Part shown: piece by piece, positions 6,799 to 45,016 of the stretch
Layout of the letters: the number at the start of each line of letters is the position of its first letter
Position numbering within the stretch: position 1 is the stretch's first letter
Assembly (NCBI GenBank): GCA_944325895.1
Contig: CALVCA010000010.1
Span: 1-50,647, forward strand
Reading direction: 5' to 3'
Length of the DNA: 50,647 nucleotides
Origin: Candidatus Gastranaerophilales bacterium
GTDB taxonomy: Bacteria > Cyanobacteriota > Vampirovibrionia > Gastranaerophilales > Gastranaerophilaceae
Position numbers and translations under genes: made by a program
The notes under the pieces: model-generated
The model's database searches: none
What the model saw: the letters and a program-made list of their open reading frames with translations, nothing else
What the model was told of the DNA's origin: nothing

Positions 6799-6858
6799 AT
6801 GAAAACTATTGAAATAAAAGCGGATAAGATAGTCGCCCCCCCCCTATGGCACGCTTGA
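6799..6858 (+). CDS. Leader ORF ending in a C9 tract before a prepilin gene
   Basis: The frame encodes MKTIEIKADKIVAPPLWHA and stops. It has a strong ribosome site (AAGGAG, 7-base spacing) and a good promoter. The codons for APP lie in nine consecutive C at 6836-6844. With ten C the frame would not stop but read on through the ATG at 6846 into the prepilin ORF. A nearly identical leader stands before the prepilin at 45 kb. Reasonable readings are a phase-variable N-terminus, a -1 ribosomal or transcriptional slippage site, or a homopolymer sequencing error. Confidence 0.6.
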   Translation: MKTIEIKADKIVAPPLWHA

Positions 6859-26340: not shown

Positions 26341-27144
26341 TTACTTACCAAACAATACTGCTCTAGCTGCATCAGAAGCAGGTTCAACAGTTTGTCCGTA
26401 AAATACTACAGGATAAATATCTTTTACATTAGAAGAAGATACATCGCAGGCCACAAAATCATCGCCGGTACCGGTGTTGGTACCTTCATCACAAGAGATG
26501 ACCGTATTTGGACCTGTTTCACCATTAACGTCAATAAAGCCATAACACAAATTAGCAACTGCATCTTCTTCTGTACAAGCGTGTGCTCCTGTAGCACCAC
26601 TCATATAAATAAACGTTGTTCCATCTGCCAAGTTAAATACTTTTGAATTAGTTGCAGTTGGAGCAGTCATAGCTATTGTTACTTCAGCTTTACCACCCTG
26701 ACAATTACCTACAGTAGCACCCTGAACAGTAGGTTTTGTATTTTTGTCAGCTCCTGTACAATTTGCACTATATGTTAATTTTGGTGTTGTTGCACTCTCA
26801 CCCGTTCCTTCTTTAAACCCATTTGTATTTGCTGCAAAATAAGTTGATGTTGCCTCAGTTGCGGATTGCAACCGTTCTTGTAAAAGAGCTCCTAATGAAT
26901 TGGCAGTAGGTGCAACACCAGTAGCAGCAACATCTGCTACTAATGTTGAAAAATCCGTATCTTCCATTGCAACATTCATCAATACAGCTTGATTTAATGT
27001 TGAAAGAGCTTTTTTGTAAGCTGATTTAAATTGTGCTCCGTTTGTGTTTGAAATCAATGTCGGGATTGTCATTGCGGCAACTACACCGATGATACCAAGT
27101 GTAATCAACACTTCCGCCAACGTAAAACCAAATCTCTTTGTCAT
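26341..27144 (-). CDS. Type IV prepilin-like protein
   Basis: This 267-aa protein starts MTKRFGFTLAEVLITLGIIG, so it has a normal 6-residue class III leader followed by the pilin helix. The start at 27144 has AGGAAG upstream. The mature part is unusually rich in Ala, Thr and Gly with few charged residues, holds several Cys, and ends with a variant of the shared motif (DVNGETGPNTV). A strong terminator and a well-formed promoter suggest high expression. A 280-nt leader with a small ORF, a G9 tract and a cloverleaf-like inverted repeat precedes it. No pilus assembly genes are adjacent. Confidence 0.88.
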   Translation of the reverse strand: MTKRFGFTLAEVLITLGIIGVVAAMTIPTLISNTNGAQFKSAYKKALSTLNQAVLMNVAMEDTDFSTLVADVAATGVAPTANSLGALLQERLQSATEATSTYFAANTNGFKEGTGESATTPKLTYSANCTGADKNTKPTVQGATVGNCQGGKAEVTIAMTAPTATNSKVFNLADGTTFIYMSGATGAHACTEEDAVANLCYGFIDVNGETGPNTVISCDEGTNTGTGDDFVACDVSSSNVKDIYPVVFYGQTVEPASDAARAVLFGK

Positions 27145-27188
27145 AATTTTTTCTTCCTTTCTTTTTTTGTACAACTGAGCTATGCTCC

Positions 27189-27320
27189 ATAATTTACAAA
27201 TCCCCATTGCAGCCGACGACTACTGAAAGGTGAAGTCAATAGTCGTTTTTGACAAAAAAGATTCGTGATATATTGTTTGTTCATAGCAATATATGACTGC
27301 AACAGGGGTTTGTAAATTAT
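27189..27320 (-). ncRNA. Cloverleaf-like inverted-repeat element in the prepilin 5' leader
   Basis: Two 24-base arms (27189-27212 and 27297-27320) pair almost fully, sharing ATAATTTACAAA, a C4 block and TTGCAG. Inside are two further perfect stems: ACGACTA/TAGTCGT (27216-27222 with 27240-27246) and ATATATTG/CAATATAT (27268-27275 with 27287-27294). The result is a three-way junction 45 bases before the prepilin start. It could be a cis-acting RNA or a small transposon-like element (MITE). The whole intergenic stretch 27145-27515 holds this element, the leader ORF and two promoters. Confidence 0.65.
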
Positions 27321-27330
27321 AAACGGAAAA

Positions 27331-27426
27331 CTAAGCCTGAAGGAAGTATACCCCCCCCCTACAGCTGCTTGCTGCAAGGGTTTCGGTCACTTCTGCTAAA
27401 AATTTTTCCGCTTTGTTTTTCTTCAT
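27331..27426 (-). CDS. Leader ORF with a G9 tract upstream of a prepilin
   Basis: The frame encodes 31 aa beginning MKKNKAEKFLAEVTETLAAS and ends after a run of nine G (27351-27359) in codons for RGGV. Its ATG is exactly 6 bases after a consensus promoter. With eight G the frame would instead continue as an 80-codon ORF that ends just inside the cloverleaf element. It resembles the two poly-C leaders in position and tract length but not in sequence, except for the shared bases C9TACAG on the plus strand. Confidence 0.5.
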   Translation of the reverse strand: MKKNKAEKFLAEVTETLAASSCRGGVYFLQA

Positions 27427-27432
27427 GCCCTT

Positions 27433-27461
27433 ATTTTATTAATTTTTCACAATTTTGTCAA
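27433..27461 (-). promoter_or_regulatory. Consensus promoter of the G9 leader and prepilin
   Basis: On the minus strand TTGACA (27461-27456), a 17-bp spacer and TAAAAT (27438-27433) end 6 bases before the leader ATG at 27426. This is one of the two strongest promoters of the window. Confidence 0.75.
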
Positions 27462-27515
27462 GGGGTGTAATGATGAGAAAAATTTTTGTGATAAAATTAT
27501 AAAACGGAGAAAAAA

Positions 27516-44956: not shown

Positions 44957-45016
44957 ATGAAAACTATTGAAAAATTAGCGGATAAGATAGTCGCCCCCCC
45001 CCTACAGTGTGTTTGA
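44957..45016 (+). CDS. Leader ORF ending in a C9 tract, second copy
   Basis: The frame encodes MKTIEKLADKIVAPPLQCV and stops. It has a strong ribosome site and the C9 tract at 44994-45002. As at 6.8 kb, ten C would carry it into the downstream prepilin frame, giving ...APPPTVCLIKAF. Here no in-frame ATG exists between tract and prepilin signature, so the leader ATG is the only well-supported start for the prepilin. Confidence 0.65.
   Translation: MKTIEKLADKIVAPPLQCV

Follow-up and report, generated by a model that had tools for sequence, protein, structure and literature searches.

A candidate antisense leader, gated by a phase-variable upstream reading frame, in the prepilin genes of a Gastranaerophilales genus

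In Streptococcus gallolyticus, it has been demonstrated for pil1 that repeat number within a leader peptide determines whether a hairpin further downstream is disrupted by ribosomes (PMC3894217). The repeats of pil1 and pil3 are pentamers (GCAGA), the hairpin terminates transcription and acts in cis, and the product is a sortase pilus. We analyzed a 50,647-nucleotide stretch of DNA from Candidatus Gastranaerophilales bacterium (hereafter, the window), in which the leader of a prepilin gene shares two traits with that system: A slippery repeat in the leader open reading frame (ORF) shifts the frame (here G8-G10, with both states found), and the long version of the leader ORF overlaps a downstream RNA structure (here in 22/22 cases of the through-frame). 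The two differ in their parts, as the Gastranaerophilales leader carries a G homopolymer, a three-way junction that is not a terminator, and a type IV-type prepilin. They differ also in where the structure points, since, in contrast to the cis effect in S. gallolyticus, the loops here are antisense to the mRNA of another gene.

Trans-acting leaders and loop-loop antisense RNAs offer further comparisons. The Listeria riboswitch leader RNA SreA acts in trans on prfA mRNA, and the leader studied here would similarly take on a second role in the antisense control of a different mRNA, but no riboswitch ligand domain was found in it, and its gating would instead come from translation of a phase-variable upstream ORF (uORF). 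RNAI/RNAII and CopA/CopT are loop-loop antisense RNAs that serve plasmid copy control. As in those pairs, a structured hairpin loop would face the complementary hairpin loop of its target, followed by occlusion of the Shine-Dalgarno (SD) sequence; unlike them, the RNA is encoded in trans in the leader of a paralogous gene, has three contact points, and has no part in plasmid copy control. In Neisseria-type phase variation of pilus genes, slippage of a homopolymeric poly-G/C tract changes the reading frame. The same kind of slippage shifts the frame here, except that the tract lies in a regulatory uORF and not in a structural gene; elsewhere in this genome, tracts within the coding frame do occur in ORFs associated with prepilins. 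A search of the literature (open-licence papers) found no report of phase variation of Melainabacteria pili or of phase variation in Gastranaerophilales. While leader-ORF phase variation and trans antisense control are each known, their combination would be new.

A conserved structured RNA ahead of prepilin genes

The original prediction described an inverted repeat at 27189-27320, which we found to be real and correctly placed, with a closing helix (P1) around two inner hairpins (P2 and P3). The element and the gene behind it are as follows.

27189..27320, minus strand: three-way-junction RNA, identified by fold, z-score and covariation (covariance-model match, 27188-27321)
27320-27311 with 27198-27189, and 27307-27293 with 27216-27202, minus strand: closing helix P1, from fold and covariation
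26341..27144, minus strand: window prepilin, 267 aa, with a class III signal; it shares 59% identity with the prepilin of class B

Overall, P1 spans 27320-27293 paired with 27216-27189 on the minus strand, i.e., in the sense of the prepilin, and the P2 loop inside it falls at 27286-27276. The 321-nt leader folded with an energy of -96.3 kcal/mol (z = -7.0), which none of 100 shuffles equalled or bettered, and a 191-nt piece gave z = -4.6 even when its plus strand was folded. In an alignment of 18 homologues, evaluated with RNAalifold and by direct counting, standard pairs filled 94.6% of the cells and 17 of the 37 pairs had changed on both sides, yielding a covariation score of 0.410; shuffles scored 0.202, and slid controls no more than 0.113. 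Within the lower half of P1, pairing was kept over a sequence that was almost unconserved. As judged from the letters of the genome, the RNA is shown to be the prepilin-sense (minus) strand, because G-U pairs occur on that strand and the bit scores of the R1 covariance model are far higher there (141 bits, versus 49 bits on the opposite strand, for the copies on contig C4). The covariation and the fold thus indicate that the hairpin-rich pilin leader is a real, conserved RNA.

The conserved region is longer than the repeat itself, as an alignment of the three copies in this genome (G000) delimited a leader of ~330 nt (27144-27470). Both further copies in the genome lie on contig C4, upstream of prepilin paralogues. 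Their leaders (C4:6554-6891 and C4:19455-19792), ~13 kb apart, are mutually identical over the aligned stretch, which suggests a recent duplication or gene conversion. A covariance search, which the original prediction had named among its checks, returned 27 copies, spread over 13 of the genus's 16 genomes; genomes sampled from the family's other genera contained none. Ahead of paralogous prepilin genes, 25/27 copies keep the promoter, the uORF and the SD in a conserved arrangement, and the other two are cut by contig ends.

Two side observations concern the prepilins. Prepilins of the VRIMTKFKGFT class in related genera (L029, L031, L032 and similar) have a long conserved leader of their own, GAAATATTTGTACATAGTTGG...CGTGAAGC, which may be a different structured RNA. 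The prepilins of L023/L143, L146 and L215 start with MTKRFG and then have an insert, either VPQARQDRSNALTA or VPEAxQDMGNSSSAA, ahead of FTLAEV rather than GFTLAEV.

The uORF and its G tract

Between the promoter and the prepilin gene, the leader holds a short uORF with a homopolymeric G tract, laid out as follows.

27433..27461, minus strand: sigma-70-like promoter, TTGACA-17-TAAAAT, 11/12 matches
27331..27426, minus strand: uORF in its present frame, MKKNKAEKFLAEVTETLAASSCRGGVYFLQA, which stops soon after the G tract
27351..27359, minus strand: G9 tract, for which a length of G8 or G11 would bring the uORF in frame through the whole structure
27180..27350, minus strand: alternative frame, open from the G tract across the whole structured element to a TAG

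The uORF opens with an ATG a few bases downstream of the promoter, and the homologues used have similar TTGACA-TATAAT-like boxes just upstream of it. Tracts of G8-G10 occurred in 25/27 homologues, and it is the length of the tract that decides whether the uORF stops early or runs on through the entire structure. In a uniform test of all frames, the through-frame was open across the region tested in all 22 tract-bearing homologues, versus none of the 22 for each of the other five frames; over the structure itself it was open in 27/27 copies. By tract lengths as read from assemblies, not from reads, 4 copies are at present in frame and 23 are out, the latter in two different frames that lead to an early stop.

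The in-frame copies form a continuous ORF of 73-96 aa across the RNA, with G9 in L124/L026 and L143/L023, with G10 in L146, and without a tract in L142/L016. Both states occur on one shared uORF within a single genome (G003), where L146 has G10 and is in frame, whereas L150 has G9 and is out; similar uORFs of G010 and G012 likewise form a G9/G10 pair. The uORF of L148 is out of frame. One copy, L145 (G011:C33:7065-7209), is decayed, in that its G tract is interrupted (GGGAGGGG), its P2 loop is altered and its frame is fixed as out.

Similar tracts are common elsewhere in this genome. About 35-40 tracts of G9-G11 were counted, most of them inside the starts of ORFs just after the SD (for example at C2:73367, C2:86063, C1:11388 and C3:99551, and at 6836-6844 and 44994-45002 in the window). 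Several would, if in frame, lead into prepilin-like proteins (L230, MNKGLKQLF..GGGRLAQS..FTLAEVLITLGIIG; L223), and other tract ORFs, on the other strand, have the motif ADKIVAPP in common; taken together, the tracts seem to mark a set of phase-variable genes, related to pilins, that spans the genome. They are strongly co-oriented along contigs (80 of 86 overlapping matches on the minus strand here, and also on the long contigs of G010), with the ORFs that hold them running in both directions, perhaps as a result of replication-strand bias.

Complementarity to the class B prepilin mRNA

The two loops of the element and the strand that joins them are complementary to the translation-start region of a second prepilin mRNA, which we refer to as class B. 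This prepilin lies downstream of a malQ-like gene, and its first 60 residues are nearly identical to those of the window prepilin. The matching segments, and the SD of the leader's own gene, are listed below.

27276..27287, minus strand: P2 hairpin loop, whose 11-mer GCTATGAACAA (27287-27277) is the exact reverse complement of the class B 5′-UTR loop TTGTTCATAGC
27250..27265, minus strand: junction strand joining P2 to P3, CGAATCTTTTTTGTCA, which with one bulge is antisense to ATGACAAAAAGATTCG (start codon and codons 2-6 of class B)
About 27225..27235, minus strand: P3 loop, whose sequence CTTCACCTTTC is exactly reverse-complementary to GAAAGGTGAAG, the class B SD
27156..27161, minus strand: own SD, GAAAGG(AAG), which is no longer fully complementary to the P3 loop

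In this genome, the target of the P2 loop lies at C5:16348-16358, just upstream of the class B SD. Three perfect complements of 11 nt fall within 85 nt of class B, whereas three matches of at least 10 nt were found in none of 13,290 control windows (136 kb of the same genome). Exact copies of GCTATGAACAA in the genome are those in the three leaders and in two coding regions, plus the reverse complement at class B.

The complementarity also holds across the genus. All 13 element-bearing genomes have a class B target, and the complement of the P2 loop is present in all 13 (as the exact 11-mer, with 10 for one decayed copy). Neither element nor target occurs in G005, and G004 and G014 have the target with the element undetected (assemblies 85% and 89% complete). 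The exact target was not found in three malQ-linked class B relatives from other genera.

We compared how well each segment pairs with class B and with its own mRNA. Between the P3 loop and the class B SD, the match extends over 9-11 nt in 26/27 copies, as opposed to usually only 0-7 nt between the loop and its own SD, and class B is favored in 22/25 (mean of -15.3 versus -9.9 kcal/mol, for bare duplexes with folding and topology ignored). For the P2 duplex, calculated in the same way with folding and topology ignored, the values were -16.0 kcal/mol with class B and -2.5 kcal/mol with its own leader. The junction discriminates little (-13.3 versus -12.2 kcal/mol for its own start region, again as bare duplexes); the class B start codon is its best site in most copies, and the match is absent from three diverged copies in G003. 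The match of P3 to the class B SD is partly expected of any anti-SD loop. From these comparisons, the leader's own SD looks to have diverged from its own antisense, and this divergence, with the match kept at the class B SD, argues for a target in trans. Of the original idea of a cis-regulatory RNA, the structured regulatory leader is supported by its conservation across the genus, its strong covariation and the lack of a matching Rfam family. The uORF switched by the G tract and the complementarity to class B, neither of which was part of that prediction, point to a trans role rather than to one in cis only.

Within the genus, loop and target are both invariant and no covariation between them was seen, so covariation cannot prove their pairing. 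G025 has a variant class B loop, for which a cross-genus search for a partner found the class B site alone. Within the class B mRNA, TTGTTCATAGC is also able to form a bulged pairing with the start codon, and such cis pairing might account for its conservation instead. Other exact occurrences of TTGTTCATAGC in the genus lie nearly all on the antisense strand of coding regions, the exceptions being the leader of a second prepilin resembling class B, in G003, and a few sites in non-prepilin contexts. In the genus, the class B site would form the loop of a putative hairpin in the UTR, which matching arms support but covariation does not.

A proposed pilin switch and its alternatives

Given the conserved RNA, the frame logic and the complementarity that we observed, the best reading, to which we lean with slightly better than even confidence, is that the leader acts as an antisense RNA to control the sister class B pilin, with a phase-variable uORF as its gate. 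Within the leader of the prepilin mRNA, the element would serve as the antisense domain. Once transcribed and folded, it would expose two loops and the junction strand, which would pair in trans with the 5′-UTR hairpin loop, the SD and the start codon of the malQ-linked class B prepilin mRNA, thereby blocking initiation and repressing translation. With the tract out of frame, ribosomes translating the uORF would leave before the element, allowing it to fold and the antisense to be active; with the tract in frame, they would translate through the element and melt it, such that the antisense would be inactive and class B spared. Slippage of the tract in living populations would then act as a heritable, reversible switch that sets whether or not the mRNA of the variant pilin silences the constant pilin. 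The sign of this effect, repression, is likewise a prediction.

A first alternative is a regulator that acts in cis only. Here, translation of the long uORF would melt the structure and thereby raise translation or transcription of the downstream prepilin as a phase-variable attenuator, and the complementarity to class B would be a by-product of the start sequence that the prepilins share. Such a device would work in the manner of S. gallolyticus pil1; in its favor, P3 has a loop of anti-SD character, and pairing is possible between the junction and the leader's own start codon. However, the own SD has lost its complementarity to P3 in 22/25 copies where class B keeps it, the P2 loop matches class B and not its own leader, and no intrinsic terminator or terminator-like site was found in the leader. 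We regard this explanation as possible, yet distinctly doubtful.

The conserved loops might instead be binding sites of a ligand- or protein-binding leader, either riboswitch-like or an autoregulatory element of the pilin mRNA. That they sit inside covarying stems would suit this idea, but we consider it improbable, as the exact complementarity to a second mRNA explains the conservation of the loops and an open frame through an aptamer would be unusual. Nor did Rfam provide a match: At the gathering threshold it reported only tRNA in the window, with weak, unconvincing sub-threshold matches at the locus, which bears out the earlier impression that no known riboswitch class obviously fits.

Still less probable is a phase-variable gene for a small protein, in which the product would matter and the RNA structure would be secondary. 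The frame is open in all homologues and the peptide is partly conserved (IAMNKQYxTN...SPFDN), but Pfam, NCBIfam and PHROG contained no family for the through-frame peptide. Moreover, the C-terminal residues are read in different frames among copies, yet the frame stays open, and compensation in the stems alters residues of the uORF (Q to R in P2). For these two reasons, the passage of ribosomes seems to matter more than the peptide.

A miniature transposable element (MITE), which the original prediction had offered as an alternative, or a DNA-level recombination site for the exchange of pilin genes, is very unlikely despite several near-identical copies per genome (as in the two C4 leaders) and a weak R1 match on the other strand, as with any inverted repeat, since the stems have G-U pairs on one strand and, in place of dispersed unlinked copies, 25/27 copies directly precede a prepilin and the remaining 2 are cut by contig ends.

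Returning to the antisense leader, the locus would be a contingency locus in which slippage toggles a leader between being translated and acting as antisense, providing an uncultured gut lineage with a heritable switch of pilin choice by way of RNA; we hold this broader view tentatively, at a little under even confidence. The RNA is absent from Rfam, and the complementarity gives explicit tests by compensatory mutation. If true, the arrangement would join in one leader slippage-based phase variation and antisense RNA, which usually occur apart, and it would supply a testable rule for which pilin is displayed by a cell of the Gastranaerophilales, a group of gut bacteria.
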